A DNA stretch of 64,000 bases from Rhodococcus sp. 1163 (GTDB lineage: Bacteria > Actinomycetota > Actinomycetes > Mycobacteriales > Mycobacteriaceae): positions 1 to 64,000 of the forward strand of contig NZ_MKKX01000003.1 in NCBI RefSeq assembly GCF_002091985.1, read 5' to 3'. Positions 1-8,175 of the stretch are shown piece after piece. The notes below the pieces were generated by a model. That model worked only from the letters and a program-made list of their open reading frames with translations. It did no database searches and was not told the origin of the DNA. The translations under genes and the position numbers were made by a program. Position 1 is the first letter of the stretch, and every line of letters begins with the position of its first letter.

Positions 1-410
1 GGCGTTCGCGCTGTGGGGAGGGCCGCCTCAAGTGCTGCGAATGGACAACGGACCGGAGTTCATATCGCATGTGCTGCAACAGTTCTGCCGGAATCGAATC
101 GGAATCTCGTACATCCCGCCGGGCACACCATGGAACAACGGCCACATCGAATCCTTCAACAACCGACTACGAAAGGAATGCCTCAACCGCAATCACTGGA
201 CCAGCCTGCTCGAAGCGAGGGTCGTGATCGAAGACTTCAAAGACGACCACAACAATCGCCACCGGCACTCGTCCCTGGGCTACCTGACACCCGCCGAGTA
301 CGCTGCCCAATGCACCCACACGCACCAACCCGAGGGCTGCGAGATCGACTGACAACAATCACACCGTGGCTCTAGAACGCGGTGGTCCGACTATCGGGGA
401 CCTGCCACAG
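1..410 (+). mobile_element. Right end of an IS3 family insertion sequence
   Basis: The transposase stops at 352. The next 58 bases, up to the GGACCTGCCACA at 399-410, look like the terminal inverted repeat of many actinobacterial IS3 elements. The exact end is inferred from general familiarity with such ends; the left end and any target duplication lie outside the window. Confidence 0.5.
2..352 (+). CDS. IS3 family transposase (OrfB), C-terminal part, cut by window edge
   Basis: The reading frame is open from the first bases of the window and ends at a TGA at 350-352. It carries the end of an rve/DDE integrase core: MDNGPEF holds the second catalytic Asp, and a block ending in GHIESFNNRLRKECLN holds the catalytic Glu. 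The usual IS3 tail HSSLGYLTPAEYA follows. The protein would cut and join the ends of the IS. The N-terminal part and OrfA lie outside the window, so it cannot be told whether the whole element is intact. The family call is safe; the subgroup is not assigned. Confidence 0.9.
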   Translation, partial: AFALWGGPPQVLRMDNGPEFISHVLQQFCRNRIGISYIPPGTPWNNGHIESFNNRLRKECLNRNHWTSLLEARVVIEDFKDDHNNRHRHSSLGYLTPAEYAAQCTHTHQPEGCEID

Positions 411-452: not shown

Positions 453-1835
453 ATGACGACTCCCGCGGGTTGGTATCCGGATCCAGCAGGTCTGCCCCAT
501 CATCGTTGGTGGGACGGTTTTCAGTGGACGTCGGCGACCCAGGCGAGCGATCCGGTTTCGCCGGCGCCTCCGAACTCTGTTCTGGCGGGCGACACTCGTA
601 GGTCGGTGTCGTTGTTCAATGGAAAGCGACGGGCGCAAGAACTGCAGGAGCAGGTCGATCGACTGTCTGCCGTGGTGGAACGGGCAGGACTTGGCCGGGT
701 CGTCAGCGCTGATGCTGAACTGGCACGTATCCTGGAGGAAGTGTCAGCGCTCCGCGGTGAGCGCACGGCGTTGGCGGATCAGATCCGCGCTGCGCGTGAA
801 GAACTCGTCGAGACGAAGGCGCAACAGGACTTGCAGTCGGTCGGTTACTACGCGTACCACCATCCGGCGGAGACATCGATTCAACTCAAGGACGAGCTTC
901 TCCGGGTGCAGTCCGAGATCAAGGAGCGGATCAGAACGAAGGCCGCGATCTGGGCGACGACGAACTTTACCTTCAACAATTCGACTGCGCAGGGCCGGAA
1001 GTTTGTGACCGAGATGTGGCGGATCATGTTGCGCGCCTACAACGCCGAAGCAGAGAACTGTGTGAAGACAGTCAAAGCCGGCAATCTCGCAGCTGCGAGC
1101 CAGCGTCTGATGAAAGCTGCGGAGCAGATCGCGAAGCAGGGGCAGATGATCGATCTCCGGGTCACCGACGGCTACCACCGGCTCCGAGTGCGGGAGCTGG
1201 AACTGGCAGCGGATGTGCACATGAAGGTGCAGGAGGAAAAAGCTGCCGAGCGGGAGCGCCGCGAGGAACTACGCGAGCAACGCAAGGTGCAGCAAGAGTT
1301 GCAGGCGGCGCGGGCGAAGATCGAGAAGGAGCTCGCTCATTACAGCAACGCTGTCGCTGCCCTGGTCGCGAGTGGGGATGTCGAGGGTGCGGAACGGCTG
1401 CGGGTCAAGCTCGCTGACGCGCAGCGTGCGCTCGATGATGTCGATTATCGGGCCGCGAATATTCGGGCTGGGCATGTGTACGTGATCTCGAACATGGGTG
1501 CGTTCGGGATCAACATGGTCAAGATCGGAATGACGCGCCGGTTGGAGCCGATGGACCGGGTGCGTGAGCTCGGTGATGCGTCGGTTCCGTTCCGGTTCGA
1601 TGTGCATGCTCTGTTTTTCGCGGACGATGCCGTGTCGGTGGAAGCGGAACTCCATAGGGTTTTCGCGGATCGGCGGGTGAACCAGGTCAATCAACGGCGT
1701 GAATTCTTCTATGCGAATCCAACCGAAGTGCTCGAGGCTTTGCGTCGGAATGTCGGAGAAGTCATCTCCTTCACCGAGGAGCCGGAAGCGGAGGAGTACT
1801 TGGTGAGTATCGGAAAGAAGTCGGGGTCGTTCTGA
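453..1835 (+). CDS. DUF2510-DUF4041-GIY-YIG (T5orf172) nuclease-like protein
   Basis: A 460-residue protein with three parts. Residues 4-30 are a DUF2510 module (GWYPDPAG and paired Trp residues), found at the N-terminus of many actinobacterial proteins. A long charged, coiled-coil-rich middle corresponds to DUF4041, roughly residues 60-335. Residues about 345-435 are a T5orf172/MUG113 domain of the GIY-YIG superfamily: VYVISN, then MVKIGMTRR with the conserved Arg, then EAELHRVF with the metal-site Glu, then RREFF. This domain suggests DNA cleavage. It stands alone between an IS3 end and an att-like site. Related proteins are frequent on phages and islands; a role in defence or phage biology is inference only. 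Confidence 0.8.
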   Translation: MTTPAGWYPDPAGLPHHRWWDGFQWTSATQASDPVSPAPPNSVLAGDTRRSVSLFNGKRRAQELQEQVDRLSAVVERAGLGRVVSADAELARILEEVSALRGERTALADQIRAAREELVETKAQQDLQSVGYYAYHHPAETSIQLKDELLRVQSEIKERIRTKAAIWATTNFTFNNSTAQGRKFVTEMWRIMLRAYNAEAENCVKTVKAGNLAAASQRLMKAAEQIAKQGQMIDLRVTDGYHRLRVRELELAADVHMKVQEEKAAERERREELREQRKVQQELQAARAKIEKELAHYSNAVAALVASGDVEGAERLRVKLADAQRALDDVDYRAANIRAGHVYVISNMGAFGINMVKIGMTRRLEPMDRVRELGDASVPFRFDVHALFFADDAVSVEAELHRVFADRRVNQVNQRREFFYANPTEVLEALRRNVGEVISFTEEPEAEEYLVSIGKKSGSF

Positions 1836-2016
1836 ACCGATGCGGCCGTCACTGCTCATGCGTCGTTTGGGAGTCGAAAATAGAGAATGGGACGTTGCCG
1901 ACGACGGCTTTAGGAACGACGGACCAAAAGGGTTTCACGTTAGCTCCGAATCGAAGAGACTTACGTCGCAGGGCGATAGCTAGCGGAATAGGGGGAGGCG
2001 ATGATCGCGGTTTGTC

Positions 2017-2530
2017 GGTGTCACAGGATCCGCTGCCGCTCTCCTATGTAGTGTGATCGCTTGTCCGTTGCGTCCCACCGCGGTCCGTAGTCGTTCAGAG
2101 CAGTTCGTAGCGTTCGACAAGGGCGCAGTTCGGTGTCACGAGGGTGTCACAGGTCGGTACGTTCGGGGATGGATGGGTTCGGTCGGTGATGTACGAAAAC
2201 TGTTGTGAACGAACAAATATCGAGCCCAGTGGAGTTCAGGTGAATCCACTTCTAGGGACTTAAAATCCGCACAGTGTCGGTTCGTGTCCGACTGGGGGCA
2301 CCAGAGTTCATATGGATCCAGAATCTTGGACCAGAACAGCGCTTTTCGGGTGGCAGCGTGGATGCTGGTGGTCTTCTACGGATCTGAGTGGACAACCGAG
2401 ACAGCGGATTTCGGATCCGCGTATTCGAGGTCGACGACCCTGGCCACTTCGCCGTATTTCACCAGGTCAGGGCAAGATTGACATGCGCAAGCAGGCTAGC
2501 AGCGGAGCCTCGGTGTCACACGGTTGTCAC
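2017..2530 (+). repeat. Five dispersed GGTGTCAC direct repeats
   Basis: GGTGTCAC occurs at 2017-2024, 2132-2139, 2143-2150 and 2512-2519. A variant with one extra T (GGTTGTCAC) is at 2522-2530. All are in the same orientation, and the close copies form two pairs with a period of about 11 bases, one helical turn. The pairs lie on both sides of the tRNA-like fragment at 2256-2303. This layout resembles arm-type binding sites of tyrosine integrases. That reading is inference; no integrase gene is present. Confidence 0.5.
2256..2303 (+). other. tRNA 3'-half-like sequence, candidate attachment site
   Basis: From 2256 the sequence reads as an anticodon region (GGACTTAAAATCC), then a perfect 5-bp T-arm (GTCGG at 2276-2280, loop TTCGTGT, CCGAC at 2288-2292), then a TGGGGGC acceptor strand, discriminator A and CCA (2301-2303). 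No matching 5' half is found upstream, where the acceptor strand should read GCCCCCA. The loop would give anticodon UAA (Leu), but the variable arm is too short for a leucine tRNA. A displaced or att copy of a tRNA 3' end is the simplest reading. An encoded functional tRNA is unlikely. Confidence 0.6.
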
Positions 2531-3018
2531 AACTACGCGCGTGCGAGTCCGCGGGAGTTCATCTTGAGCCGCCACCGTCTTCGATATTTGCTTAAAAATA
2601 CTTTGCGGCAGGAAATCTCGTAGGCATTTCGGCTGCCCACTGGCAATTAGGTGCTCATCCCCCCAGATCCTGGAGATTGGCGACGAAAATTGCATCTACC
2701 GCACCATCGCCTCGAAAACCCAAGTTCAGCACAGTTTTCGCTCTGAAACTTGGCGGTGGCGTCCGCTAGGCTGCCGATATGGACAGCCGACCAGGAGAAC
2801 AACTATGATCTGCGCGGCCAGCACCGCTCCGGTTCCCACTGTGGGGCGTTGCCAACTTGGTTGGAGTACAGTACATTTCGGGTGCAGCAGGGCATCACGC
2901 GGGGAGGCAGAGCAGGCAGCGAGGGTCTGTTCGGTGACTTGATCCCATACCCGGGTTCGGATGGCTGCTTCGGTGCGGCGAGTCGGTGGCGGTCAGCGGG
3001 TCGTGCATCCCATGCCGC

Positions 3019-4536
3019 TTAGACTATGTATCCGGTGTGACGGATGGGCTCGACTGCGCCGGTCCGTCGGCCACCGGCAACCCGCAACCCCGCCAGTAAC
3101 GCGTTGCGTAGCTCACGCGGGTCAATGACATCGTCGTAGGTGAGCATCCCGGCAGCCCGCCACGGTCCCGATGCCTCGTTGTCGACCAACTCTCGGCGCG
3201 TTCGGTCATCATCGCGGGCAGTGCGGCCACCGACTTCTGCAGGAATCCCACCGAGCGTGACGCCTGGGAACGCGAGGTTCAAAGTTTGGTTGTCGTACGG
3301 GTTCATGCCCATCACGGAGCTGCCGAACCCGAAAGCTTTGCGAACCGTGACGTGGAACTTGGGCACCTGAAGACGGTGCTGGGCAGCGAACATTCGGCTA
3401 CCGGCGCGCAGAATGCCCGCTCGTTCGGAGGCGCTGCCCGCCATGACTCCGGGGTTGTCGGCAAGGAAGATCACCGGCAGGTGGAACGCGCCGACCATCT
3501 CTATGAACCGGGCAGCTTTGTTCGCGGCACCGACGTCTATCGACCCAGCCAGGACCTTCGGCTGATTTGCCACGATCGCGACCGCATGGCCACCGATTCG
3601 GCCCAGTGCGGTGATGATCGACGTGGCGTGCGTCGGCTGAATTTCCAACAGTGTGTCCGCGTCGACGAGCAGTTCGAGTGCCGCGACCATGTCGTAGGGG
3701 CGCTTCGCGTTCGGGGGGATGAGATCGAGCAGGTTGTCGAGGCTGCGCTCGTCAACGTCGCAATTGCCCTCGGCAGGGCCCGCATGCGGTGGCAGTCCCC
3801 ATGCATTGGTGGGAAAGTACGACAGATATCGTCGGGCCAAGGCCAATGCCGCTGAGTCCGTCGAAGCCACGTTGTGGGCTACGCCGCTGGTGTCTACGGC
3901 GACCTTCGGGCCGCCGAGCGAGTTCTTGTCGATCTGCTCTCCGGTCGAGGCTGCCACTAGCGGGGGTCCGGCGGTGAAGAGTGCACCGTGTCCGGCGACC
4001 ATGACCACGAAATCCGACAATGGTGCCGTGAGTGCGCCGTGGCCGGCGGACGGCCCGGTCACGATCGCGACGGTCGGTACCAGCCCGGACAGCTCCGCGT
4101 GTAGCTGGAGGTCGTTGGGTGACGGCGGATGCGGTTGCAGCGCATTGGTGGCGCGGTGGCCGGCACCTTCGAGCATCATGATCAGCGGGACTCGTTCCTG
4201 TTTAGCAAGTCCGGCCAACCGCGCGCGTTTCGCTGCGGCCGCAAGTCCGATCGAGCCGCCGGCCACGGTGAAATCCTCGGCGCCGACAAGTACCGGACGG
4301 CCGTCGATCACTCCGCTGCCGGCGATGAACGCATCCGCCGGGACCTCGCCGGCCAACTGGCCGAGTTCGGTGAAGGTTCCGGAATCGACCACTGAGCGCA
4401 CCCGATCGCGGGCATCCCGGCGGCCCGTCGAGCGATACTTGTCAACCTTGGCTGGGCCGCCCATTGCGGCCCCACGTCCCCGACGATCGTCGAGGTCGGT
4501 CAGTAGAGCTTTCCAGTCGTCACGGTTTTCGGACAT
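3019..4536 (-). CDS. Acyl-CoA carboxylase, carboxyltransferase (beta) subunit
   Basis: A 505-residue carboxyltransferase of the AccD/PccB crotonase-like fold, the subunit that moves CO2 from biotin to an acyl-CoA. Both CT halves are present. The first oxyanion segment reads LEGAGHR instead of the usual DSGGAR, and the second reads KAFGFGSSVMGM, so this is a divergent branch. The ATG follows directly after the TGA of the upstream ligase gene, which indicates translational coupling. No biotin carboxylase/BCCP subunit is nearby, so it must borrow one or do something different. The substrate is unknown. Confidence 0.85.
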   Translation of the reverse strand: MSENRDDWKALLTDLDDRRGRGAAMGGPAKVDKYRSTGRRDARDRVRSVVDSGTFTELGQLAGEVPADAFIAGSGVIDGRPVLVGAEDFTVAGGSIGLAAAAKRARLAGLAKQERVPLIMMLEGAGHRATNALQPHPPSPNDLQLHAELSGLVPTVAIVTGPSAGHGALTAPLSDFVVMVAGHGALFTAGPPLVAASTGEQIDKNSLGGPKVAVDTSGVAHNVASTDSAALALARRYLSYFPTNAWGLPPHAGPAEGNCDVDERSLDNLLDLIPPNAKRPYDMVAALELLVDADTLLEIQPTHATSIITALGRIGGHAVAIVANQPKVLAGSIDVGAANKAARFIEMVGAFHLPVIFLADNPGVMAGSASERAGILRAGSRMFAAQHRLQVPKFHVTVRKAFGFGSSVMGMNPYDNQTLNLAFPGVTLGGIPAEVGGRTARDDDRTRRELVDNEASGPWRAAGMLTYDDVIDPRELRNALLAGLRVAGGRRTGAVEPIRHTGYIV

Positions 4537-6192
4537 TCAGAACACCACTTTCTTTCGCATCAATTTTCCGGTTGCGTTGCGCGGCAACGGATCTGTAGTG
4601 ACACTCCACCGCGAAGGTATTTTGAAATAGGCAATCCGGTCCGCGCAAAATACGCGCAGTTGCACTTCGTCGACCGTCGTTCCCGGATGAGTCACGACAA
4701 CCGCAACGACTTCTTGTCCGAGGTCCTCGTGCGGATTGCCGAGAACGCAGCACTCGGCAACTGCCGGGTGGTCCTCCAGGCACTGCTCGACCGCCACCGG
4801 ATAGACGTTTTCCCCTCCTCGGATGATCAAGTCGGACCGGCGTGTAGTCAGTCGCAGTAGACCGTTTTCGATGACACCGATATCGCCTGTGCGCAACCAC
4901 CGCCCCGGGGCGATCGCGTCGGCAGTGGCATCGGGGTTCTCCCAATAACTGTGCATCACCAGCGGGCTGCGTACGTAGATTTCGCCTTCATCGCCGTCTG
5001 GAAGCCTTTCACCCATCGGATCGCGAATCTCGAGTGTCACCGACGGGATGGGTCGACCCACTGTCGTCGGGTCTCGTTCGAGGTCATCGGTCAGCGCAAG
5101 GGTGATGCCTGTGCTGGTTTCTGTGAGGCCGTAGCTGTTCACCAGGGCTCGTCGCGCAAATAAGAATCGCGCACGCAACTGCGTGAGGAGGCCAGCCGAG
5201 GACGGCGCCGATCCGAGTGAGAATGCGCTCAGTGACGAGAGGTCGTACCGTTCGGAGTCGGTGAGCTGAAGGAGTCGGCTAGCCATCGTGGGTACCGCAC
5301 CCCAGTTGGTGATGCGTTCACGTTCGATCAACTCGAGCACGCGACTCGCATCGAAGGCGCCTTGATAGGTAACCACAGTGTCACCGGTCACGAGTCGTGG
5401 AACTGCGAGGTTGTGCAATCCGGAGATGTGGAACAACGGATTGATCAACAGGTGACGCTTCGGCGCTCGCACAACAGGTTCCGAGGATTCCGACACAGCG
5501 GCTGCAACGGCCTCACCGTAGCTGAAGTAGTCGATCACGGCGATGAGATTTCGCTGTGAATGCACGACCCCCTTCGGCATACCCGTCGATCCGCTGGTGA
5601 AGACGATCACGGCGGGATCATCCTCATGCACGTCCGTGTGTGGAGGCTGCGCACCGACGTGGGCTGCTGCAAGCCTGGGAATGTCGTTCTCGAAGCTGAG
5701 CGTCGGGACTTCGAGGGTGATGTTCTCGAGCAACGCCATGCGTTTGGCATCGGCGACGACAAGAGAGGGTCGGGTGAGCGCGATTCCGTCGTCGAGTTCC
5801 CGAGCCACCCACCAGGAGTTCAGTCCTACGCACACGGCTCCGAGACATTGACTCGCCCAGAAGGTAAGCACCCACTCTGGAGTGTTCGCGCCGGCGATCG
5901 CGATCCGGTCGCCGCGGCGTATGCCATAGTGCTCTGACAGTTCGATGGCGAGCGAGGCGACCAGGGCGACGTGTTCGGCGAAAGTGATGCGGCGATCGCC
6001 GTGCACCAAGTATTCGCGGTCCCCGAACTTTCCTGACTCACCCAACAGCGCGCCGACGGATTTTGTTCGATTTCTCATCACGTGCATGACGGCGCCCAGC
6101 ACGTCTTCCTCAACGAGCTCGAATGCGCCTTTCGGACCGAGAAGGCGCTCTGCCGCCAGTGCGGCCTGCGTCTGGACTGGTGCCACGGGCAT
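4537..6192 (-). CDS. Class I adenylate-forming acyl-CoA ligase
   Basis: A 551-residue AMP-binding enzyme expected to activate a carboxylic acid with ATP and load it on CoA. Visible motifs are the P-loop FTSGSTGMPKGVV near residues 198-210, YGLTETS near 355, the hinge region WLRTGDIG, and the C-terminal catalytic Lys in ATGKLMRKK. An AGAGGAA sits before the ATG. It is the first gene of a two-gene operon with the carboxyltransferase and is divergent from a TetR regulator. Together they suggest activation then carboxylation of an unknown acid, with the regulator sensing the acid or its CoA ester. Substrate is not predictable by eye. Confidence 0.88.
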   Translation of the reverse strand: MPVAPVQTQAALAAERLLGPKGAFELVEEDVLGAVMHVMRNRTKSVGALLGESGKFGDREYLVHGDRRITFAEHVALVASLAIELSEHYGIRRGDRIAIAGANTPEWVLTFWASQCLGAVCVGLNSWWVARELDDGIALTRPSLVVADAKRMALLENITLEVPTLSFENDIPRLAAAHVGAQPPHTDVHEDDPAVIVFTSGSTGMPKGVVHSQRNLIAVIDYFSYGEAVAAAVSESSEPVVRAPKRHLLINPLFHISGLHNLAVPRLVTGDTVVTYQGAFDASRVLELIERERITNWGAVPTMASRLLQLTDSERYDLSSLSAFSLGSAPSSAGLLTQLRARFLFARRALVNSYGLTETSTGITLALTDDLERDPTTVGRPIPSVTLEIRDPMGERLPDGDEGEIYVRSPLVMHSYWENPDATADAIAPGRWLRTGDIGVIENGLLRLTTRRSDLIIRGGENVYPVAVEQCLEDHPAVAECCVLGNPHEDLGQEVVAVVVTHPGTTVDEVQLRVFCADRIAYFKIPSRWSVTTDPLPRNATGKLMRKKVVF

Positions 6193-6272
6193 TGGGGTTC
6201 CTCTCGATGGCCAAAGTTCGACGGACCACCACTCGCTCGAAGGGTTAGTTGGGTCACAGTCGCGACGATGCG

Positions 6273-6292
6273 TTAATATACACGTATATTAA
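6273..6292. promoter_or_regulatory. Near-perfect palindrome, likely TetR operator
   Basis: TTAATATAC and its exact reverse complement GTATATTAA flank two bases. The site lies between the divergent ligase (start 6192) and TetR gene (start 6327), in a locally A+T-rich patch. The neighbouring TetR protein is the obvious ligand, repressing both directions. Confidence 0.7.
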
Positions 6293-6326
6293 TTTTGGTC
6301 AAGGCCTTCGTTGCTACGCTCGCGAT

Positions 6327-7019
6327 GTGAAGAAGGCAGATCAGTCGCGCCCAGCGCGCAAGCGTGGTGCCCCTCCGAAGGCCGAGCGCGTCGCAACGAG
6401 TGAAATCCTTGCGAGTGCAACTGAAATCGTCGTTGAGGACGGCTCCGAATCGCTGTCGATCCGGCGGTTGGCCGATCGGATCGGGATCTCGCCGATGGCG
6501 GTGTACAACCATTTTTCGTCGAAGGACGAGCTTCTGGGCGCTGTCATCGACGGGCTCATTGCCGCCATCCCCGCCGAGTATTCCCAAGCTGAAGATTGGG
6601 AGGGCAGCTTGCGTACCTTCGCGAGAACTATCCGAGTCGTAGCTCTCGAATCGCCTGAATGGATTCGGATTCTCCTGCAGACACGCACAACGTCCGCCGG
6701 ACTCGACCGGATGGAGGCGACGCTACGTACGCTGCAGCAAAAGGGTCTCCCGGCCCAATATTCGGTCGCGGCATACAACGCTATTTACGTGTTCGCGTTC
6801 GGCTATGCGAATCTGGACGCGGCGCGAACCCGTCGAGCAGATGTGGCCCAAGACAGCTTTTGGTCCACAAACTTTTCCGGGCTGTCACCCACTAGATATC
6901 CGACACTCACCGCATCCGCACCCGAACTCGACAGCATCTCAGCGACCGTGGAATTCGAACGCGCCCTCGACAGGTTGATCAATTCTTTGGTCGCGGAGTA
7001 TTCCCGGCCCACAACCTGA
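6327..7019 (+). CDS. TetR family transcriptional regulator
   Basis: About 230 residues from a GTG at 6327, chosen because the longer in-frame start at 6249 would run through the palindromic operator. The N-terminal TetR helix-turn-helix is clear (residues about 20-65, with SIRRLADRIGISPMAVYNHF). The C-terminal half is a variable ligand-binding domain. There is no good ribosome-binding site; a TACGCT at 6315-6320 could be the -10 of a leaderless message. It is divergent from the ligase-carboxyltransferase operon and probably controls it and itself. Confidence 0.85.
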   Translation: MKKADQSRPARKRGAPPKAERVATSEILASATEIVVEDGSESLSIRRLADRIGISPMAVYNHFSSKDELLGAVIDGLIAAIPAEYSQAEDWEGSLRTFARTIRVVALESPEWIRILLQTRTTSAGLDRMEATLRTLQQKGLPAQYSVAAYNAIYVFAFGYANLDAARTRRADVAQDSFWSTNFSGLSPTRYPTLTASAPELDSISATVEFERALDRLINSLVAEYSRPTT

Positions 7020-7130: not shown

Positions 7131-7620
7131 GTGCCACGACGTGTCGTCCTGAATCGCGCAGAAGTAGCCGCTGAGTTCCATGCCATGCGAGATTCGGGTG
7201 CTTCAGTGATCCAGGCATCCACCGCTTGCCGGCGTCAGCCGCACCACCGGCAAGCGGTGGATAGATCAGAAGGCCGGAATCGTCCGCGGGGCCAAACGGG
7301 CCCGGCCCGAACCCAGCGGACGATTCCTCTCGCAAGCCGAACGAGAGGAAATCGCGATCGGCACCGCGATGGGACTAACCCAAACCGACATCGCCGACCT
7401 GATCGGACGTCACAAATCCGTCGTCTCCCGCGAACTCAAACGCAACACCAACCTCGGCGGCACCTACCGATCAGTGTCCGCACACCAGCGAGCGGACACA
7501 CGCGCCCGCCGACCCAAGGCCGCGAAACTCGCCGACCGCAACAGTGAGCTCCGCACCGAAGTGGTCAGTCGACTCCGCAAAAAGTGTTCAACACAACGGA
7601 TCTCGCCGACACTGAATTAA
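7131..7620 (+). pseudogene. IS30 family transposase, frameshifted and truncated
   Basis: The first frame starts with a GTG at 7131 (VAAEFHAMRDSGASVIQAS) and then needs a frame change near 7227-7232. It continues in another frame (RTTGKRWIDQKAG) and runs to the IS30 helix-turn-helix MGLTQTDIADLIGRHKSVVS at 7369 onward. It stops at 7620 after about 160 residues, where family members are usually over 330, so the DDE domain is missing. It is a dead remnant. Confidence 0.8.
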
Positions 7621-8074: not shown

Positions 8075-8175
8075 GCACTTTCGCGCAGACGCAGACGCAG
8101 ACGCGATTGTATTGTTCGTCGATCTCCTACTGCGGAAGGCCCCGAGGCTGTTGCTCTCGGGTATTGTTCCGGCCG

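Follow-up and report, generated by a model that had tools for sequence, protein, structure and literature searches.

A tRNA-derived site with two arms in Rhodococcus sp. 1163: probable joint of two islands in a displaced tandem array

The window analysed here, the whole stretch of 64,000 nucleotides (G000:C3:1-64000) from a genome of 4.46 Mb in 43 contigs, carries the 3' half of a tRNA between pairs of short repeats. This raises the question of what kind of element the site belongs to and how it came to lie away from the tRNA gene. We propose, with a probability of about 80%, that it is the joint of two islands in a displaced fragment of a tRNA-anchored tandem array in bacteria related to Rhodococcus fascians. 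Genomes, contigs and fetched stretches are designated below by G, C and L numbers, with G000 being the genome of the window.

Anatomy of the site

The features concerned, by position in the window, are:

1..352, plus strand: 3' part of a transposase gene with an integrase-core domain (rve), cut by the contig start (Pfam PF13683 rve_3, E 4e-25)
453..1835, plus strand: gene for a putative PD-Lambda-1 type defence protein (DUF2510, DUF4041, T5orf172), cargo of the left unit (PADLOC E 4.9e-105; Pfam)
2017..2024, plus strand: outer left single arm-like site, recurring at -237/-238 in 8 of 17 aligned sites (window included)
2132..2150, plus strand: left arm pair GGTGTCACGAGGGTGTCAC with an 11-base period, its -123/-112 offset found also in most non-tRNA sites
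2256..2303, plus strand: core, the 3' 48 bases of a tRNA called tRNA-Leu(UAA), 96% to the intact gene G000:C33:273818-273894
2304..2421, plus strand: conserved right flank of the core, forming the head of the right unit; over about 118 bases it is 80-87% alike to the corresponding heads in most listed relatives
2512..2530, plus strand: right arm pair GGTGTCACACGGTTGTCAC; other sites have right pairs at +240 to +257
2683..2801, plus strand: unit-head remnant, matching the stretch that, in other units, lies just before or at the start of a gene for a XerC-like recombinase
3019..4536, minus strand: carboxyltransferase, probable cargo of the right unit (Pfam PF01039, E 1.5e-89)
4537..6192, minus strand: acyl-CoA synthetase, probable cargo of the right unit (Pfam PF00501, E 1.5e-73)
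6249..7019, plus strand: TetR-type regulator, probable cargo of the right unit (Pfam PF00440, PF02909)
7369..7620, plus strand: transposase fragment (HTH_38; Pfam PF13936), near which the right unit ends without an attachment site

The core at 2256-2303 comprises the anticodon loop, a complementary T stem, the acceptor strand and CCA, and the 5' half is absent. The initial annotation had described it as a tRNA 3' half without its 5' half, and these 48 bases proved to be just that; ARAGORN and Rfam call no tRNA here, in line with the low score it had predicted. The intact tRNA gene that was expected to share this 3' half was found at G000:C33:273818-273894 (96%), its T loop reading TTCGAGT and that of the core TTCGTGT. 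It heads a 9.6 kb unit with a broken integrase, followed by a second core copy. This target gene was called tRNA-Leu(UAA), yet its variable loop is short and over 51 bases it resembles the tRNA-Lys gene at 80%; the unit behind it also encodes a 1241-residue protein (stretch L017, 6753-10478) for which neither Pfam nor PADLOC gave a match at E 0.001. On another contig of the same genome (G000:C28, stretch L062, 3744-3920), an equal arm pair (GGTGTCACGAGCGTGTCACATGTCGGTACG) precedes a different tRNA 3' end (...GGGGGCTCCA) that looks like tRNA-Thr(UGU), suggesting that related elements may use other tRNA genes.

TGTCAC-type sites lie at -238 and -123/-112 to the left of the core and at +257/+268 to its right. 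Copies of GGTGTCAC occupy 2017-2024, 2132-2139, 2143-2150 and 2512-2519, and the partner of the last copy, at 2523-2530, reads GTTGTCAC. Repeat pairs with an 11-base period on both sides, plus one more copy upstream, had been claimed for this site; all of them are present, but the right pair is imperfect because of its second member, GTTGTCAC. The outer left copy reaches 0.44 at a fixed ungapped offset, i.e. it is not conserved. The octamer GGTGTCAC occurs seven times in the window (3.04 expected), a number reached by five of 100 shuffles and unremarkable alone; the 11-base-spaced pair, with up to two mismatches allowed, occurs twice (0.07 expected), as it does in one of 100 shuffles. To the right of the arms, the remnant at 2683-2801 (about 119 bases) is 74-80% alike to stretches at equal distance from the core in G009.2, G009.3 and G036.2, and the XerC-like recombinase gene itself is absent from the window beside it.

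A site of the same architecture occurs in the Rhodococcus phage REQ2, in which a core copy (89% over 45 bases) lies 35 bases from the end of the annotated integrase gene, with TTGTCAC arm pairs around it at -112/-101 and +93/+103. The REQ2 integrase is 49% identical to a 400-residue integrase that G016 encodes in the unit directly following the tRNA. Given this equal layout and the recurrence of arms and core described below, the window site is identified by its sequence as attachment-site DNA of a lambda-type tyrosine integrase, which bears out the earlier proposal of core plus arm pairs from a tyrosine-integrase element. It is presumably such an integrase that binds the arms.

Recurrence of the site in tandem arrays

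A DNA search with window positions 1840-2720 against one genome per species gave matches in 36 of the 37 genus genomes, with many hits in each genome, lying on one strand of a single contig, part of them corresponding to the tRNA itself or to tRNA-Lys only. In the stretches fetched from 30 of the 37 genomes, 91 core copies were mapped. By pattern, 28 of them possess the tRNA 5' half, and these carry the strict right pair in 15 cases and the left pair in none. The left pair accompanies 42 of the 63 copies scored as having no 5' half, and both pairs accompany 16 (window included); the 63 include two tRNA copies missed by the 5'-half pattern, in G001 (confirmed by ARAGORN) and G019:C58, neither of which has a left pair. 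These two account for part of the 21 copies wanting the left pair, and others among them are visibly degraded. This corresponds to the pattern expected for tandem insertion, namely a first site with the tRNA and a right arm, junctions with both arms and a last site with the left arm only.

Around the core, 19 genomes have the left pair and 10 have both pairs, at 16 sites in all, and shuffled flanks produced the left pair in 15 of 18,200 trials. Over 36 ungapped sites, conservation is 94% in the left arm block, 79% in the arm-core spacer, 56% in the region outside and 94% in the core. At six sites the right pair lies at +105/106 instead of +207 to +257; four of these (C33, G004, G016 and G027) lead into a unit with a G016-type integrase, one (G003) leads to no such integrase and the contig ends at the last (G006). 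Chance resemblance, or an ordinary tRNA pseudogene, could be entertained from the octamer count, which alone is within reach of chance, but the rarity of the spaced pair, the fixed geometry in 19 genomes and the layout of phage REQ2 make the probability of such an origin negligible, and we consider it ruled out. Likewise, the repeats were not found scattered at random, and a tRNA gene with the common 3' half exists, the opposite of the two outcomes that the initial annotation had named as fatal to its reading.

The exact left-arm pattern of the module was found in 18 stretches of a collection of 84,980 species, all titled Rhodococcus or Rhodococcoides (G000 possibly left out). In a sample of 301 genomes of the family, with two candidate places scored in each, the core (tRNA) was matched in 187 genomes, and the arm-containing matches outside the genus were G172 and G255 among the matches listed. 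No match to the site was obtained in 72,556 plasmid records, on which ground a plasmid origin was rejected, and a viral source was set aside likewise because the exact left-arm pattern was absent from viral contigs.

Core copies are arranged in tandem downstream of the tRNA gene, on a single strand per array and about 2-62 kb apart. Such tandem single-strand arrays were seen in G015, G009, G022, G023 and G027; in G015, for example, the tRNA lies at 2,407,516 and the sites behind it at 2397480, 2369917, 2353277, 2331792, 2287205 and 2277510, all on the minus strand. In the relatives, 38 units are bounded by successive mapped sites, with a median length of 13.5 kb and a range of 2.1-61.6 kb; a single end of each neighbouring unit is present in the window. 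In the near-empty site of G028 a conserved flank gene lies about 140 bases from the tRNA. The same distance is about 108 kb in G010, 194 kb in G027, 200 kb in G022, 216 kb in G015 and 266 kb in G023, these distances being resolved into units only in part and that of G010 containing no mapped junction. As far as sequence can tell, both the anatomy of the site and the existence of the arrays are thus well founded.

On insertion, the tRNA-end target would be left repaired and a 48-base copy of the core placed at the far end, so that new units would stack behind the tRNA. Each joint would then read as the left arm of one unit, the core and the right arm of the next. Excision would join the two ends of a unit into a complete attP, and the unit would therefore be movable in principle by an integrase made elsewhere, even if it had none of its own. 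The fragment in the window would accordingly consist of the end of the PD-Lambda-1 unit and the start of the carboxylase/acyl-CoA synthetase unit, their outer ends lost.

The initial annotation had regarded arms on both sides as odd for a simple attL or attR, an objection that did not survive: 15 other sites have both arms by the strict pattern, and 13 of these belong to mapped arrays or have further sites next to them on their contig. It had suggested a free-standing attP of a decayed element. In that scenario the circular form of a single element, with its attP re-formed, was captured at the present locus by a transposable element or by homologous recombination. In sequence, a two-unit junction is indistinguishable from the attP of a single circular unit, such that the site fits the latter too, and C3 carries no integrase and has transposase remnants on both sides of the site. 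However, all 15 other strict two-armed sites come from multi-site genomes, most from mapped arrays, and the module was found in none of the plasmid records or viral contigs searched, rendering a captured circle improbable. Because two-armed sites recur as junctions of tandem units, a lone decayed attP was set aside as first choice and a displaced piece of a tandem array is the likelier source.

Displacement of the window site

The separation of the site from the tRNA gene, also claimed before, was borne out. Synteny with the four nearest relatives resumes to the right at 8175 (G028), 10850 (G032), 11486 (G020) and 11504 (G029), and no core copies were found at the syntenic place in the stretches fetched from them. 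In G028, a genome of 4.73 Mb, the place syntenic to the window is at about 3.97 Mb and the tRNA at 1.09 Mb, and in G000 a single contig, C33, spans the tRNA region without a break. The displaced piece extends from the cut transposase gene at the contig start, which has relatives (88%) within the units of G010, to near the transposase fragment at 7369-7620. The left unit cannot be followed since C3 breaks off on that side within the transposase; the chromosomal flank presumed to lie to the left, C13, terminates next to a further long frame resembling a transposase, and the right unit has no far attachment site. Hence the site is displaced, given that its locus is not the tRNA locus and that transposase remnants bound it.

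Alternatively, insertion at a secondary, non-tRNA attachment site may have seeded a new array at the window locus. A precedent is provided by a second array locus without the tRNA 5' half, common to G010 (G010:C1:721943-755578) and G027 (G027:C1:4810079-4826662, read as 4826662-4810079), in which the left flank is 92.6% alike up to the core, showing that arrays can start elsewhere too. Nevertheless, that locus does not match the window's, the seed end would have to fall outside the contig, to the left of its first base, and a transposase fragment interrupts the right end, and we regard such seeding as unlikely. It was probably transposable elements, rather than a secondary-site insertion, that brought the array fragment to the window locus.

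Cargo and movement of the units, and comparison with known systems

Genes in the arrays were called with a codon-score script of our own, not a standard gene finder. Relatives of the gene at 453-1835 occur in array units of G004, G023, G031 and G011, and in broken form in G015, G036 and G027. One minimal unit of 3.4 kb (G004:C7:1753577-1756932) has a PD-Lambda-1-type gene, 57% to that of the window, which adjoins the left-arm end as it does in the window. No close copy of the carboxyltransferase gene was found at the corresponding place in the relatives. A cargo scan covered 194 unit proteins (99 from G015, 95 from G022 and G023), with genes below 90 residues or crossing a fetch boundary left out. 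The commonest Pfam families were TetR regulators, short-chain dehydrogenases, enoyl-CoA hydratases, hydrolases, MCE proteins, AMP-binding enzymes and transporters, and no conjugation module was present among the 25 families listed of 127 and 135 for these proteins. PADLOC matches, which denote predicted systems only, included Thoeris, a CBASS cyclase, Hachiman and PD-Lambda-1 in G022/G023, and PD-Lambda-1 and DrmD in G015. As predicted from these matches, the units carry catabolic and defensive genes, and the carboxyltransferase, acyl-CoA synthetase and TetR genes on the right of the window fit the catabolic type.

Several units are shared between species. One common to G016 and G022 is 98.5% alike over 21.5 kb, versus 90.9% for the chromosomal flank, and one common to G021 and G023 is 97.9% alike over 13.9 kb, versus 91.4%; G009 and G022 have four pieces in common at 95-98%, again versus 91.4%. 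The unit common to G015 and G023 (92% versus 90.4%) may be inherited, as it is hardly closer than the flank. Positions differ as well, with the G022 and G021 copies adjoining the tRNA and the G016 and G023 copies not adjoining it. Shared units that are closer than their host chromosomes imply recent movement; like the displaced locus, this sharing between species is read from DNA comparison. In a test of co-variation, junction halves and unit ends gave nearly the same values (rho 0.318, p 0.029, n=25 versus rho 0.316, p 0.029, n=26) and could not be told apart.

Regarding the recombinase, the earlier call for an integrase search led to 12 PF00589 matches genome-wide, none of them on C3, and no cognate integrase adjoins the window site. 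Five of the 12 lie together on one small contig (G000:C14, 60.9 kb). Among bounded units, five of 37 have a PF00589 match, one of these below the cut-off. Relatives of the G016 integrase are encoded in the first unit after the tRNA in G004 (68%), G027 (69%) and G018 (47%), as a fragment in the C33 unit of G000 (83%), and at the start of G036:C4 (83%), a contig with an unproven connection to the one that bears the tRNA. A second recombinase gene, XerC-like and in most cases broken, heads six of 34 units, at about +490 in several; it lies at similar distance from the core in stretches L057 (3064-4251), L097, L134, L136 and L083, and has relatives in 402 plasmid records, 111 of them from Rhodococcus. 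It shows no blastp similarity to the lambda-type integrase (E 0.54) and no arm-like pairs lie near its intact copy on C14, for which reasons it was not taken as the arm-site enzyme. Serine recombinases (PF00239) offered no lead as the missing enzyme, with none found within the mapped arrays of G015, G022, G023 and G021 and one in the first unit of G009.

The units might instead be ordinary integrase-bearing elements whose integrase genes decayed in place, leaving cis-mobilizable remains that have ceased to move. The broken XerC-like pieces at unit heads and the broken lambda-type integrase in C33 are as such decay would have it, and we rate this explanation only a little below an even chance. 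It has to contend with the closeness of shared units relative to their host chromosomes, which implies movement in the recent past, and with arms that are still more conserved than the spacers. A more tentative proposal, against which we put the odds somewhat higher, is a genus-wide system resembling a giant integron: multi-gene, integrase-less catabolic and defence units with a split but complete two-armed attP would collect at a single tRNA gene, occasionally at second loci, and a lambda-type integrase from phage or from the rarer integrase-bearing units would act in trans to carry them from species to species. The stacking of units at a tRNA gene would explain how large catabolic and phage-defence blocks build up at one place in these soil- and plant-associated actinobacteria. 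The 500-base marker provides a handle with which islands may be cut into units, units traced across species and movement in trans by one integrase tested.

In several known systems islands accrete in a similar manner. The ssrA islands of Dehalococcoides (vcr-GI), as described in excerpts of PMC3146451, lie in tandem behind an RNA gene between direct repeats of its 3' end and carry catabolic cargo, some members having no integration module and being suggested to be cis-mobilizable; in all these respects the present arrays are alike, integrase-less members included. According to the same excerpts, vcr-GI uses a serine recombinase (CcrB-like) and, within 100 kb, an ssrA repeat of 20 bases, whereas the Rhodococcus arrays have a tRNA core flanked on either side by arm pairs, and a minority of their units encode a lambda-type tyrosine integrase. 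The streptococcal CIMEs accreted with ICEs/IMEs are likewise integrase-less islands with attachment sites and tandem integration, and in the portions of PMC7563491 drawn on here their composites hold two to three elements and their derivation from an ICE or IME is documented. The Rhodococcus arrays comprise up to six or more units with no conjugative parent identified. As in CIMEs, units are bounded by attachment sites (38 in the relatives) and generally have no integrase (PF00589 in five of 37, broken XerC-like pieces in six of 34), and of a derivation from ICE/IME the recombinase remnants are what is observed. Additive flexible genomic islands of Alteromonas and Methylophilaceae resemble them in the cassette-like gain and loss at a tRNA, the repeated tRNA ends and the metabolic and resistance cargo, and a two-sided arm module is not described in the excerpts of PMC5217437 and PMC10872708. 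The tycheposon definition excerpted from PMC10872708 asks for a tRNA border and an own tyrosine recombinase; here the tRNA border is present and a recombinase is found in a minority of units.

The site itself agrees with a lambda-type attachment site in its tRNA-3' core (96% over 48 bases) and flanking arm-type pairs. Actinobacteriophage attP sites, in the excerpted text of PMC10865867, similarly have a core made of the tRNA 3' half from the anticodon region and flanking pairs of putative arm sites, and phage REQ2 has a related integrase. Unlike a phage attP, the window site joins two cargo units, and no phage genes are seen adjoining. Tandem accretion of cis-mobilizable islands is thus known; among open-licence PubMed Central papers, the scope of the search, no printed description of the Rhodococcoides arrays was found. 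Integrons differ in having an integrase beside the array and single-gene attC cassettes: no PF00589 match lies inside the G015 array, the core is double-stranded tRNA DNA with arm sites, the median unit is 13.5 kb and no integron integrase was identified. In outline the arrays are nonetheless integron-like, in that units are stacked at one site and the recombinase possibly acts from elsewhere.
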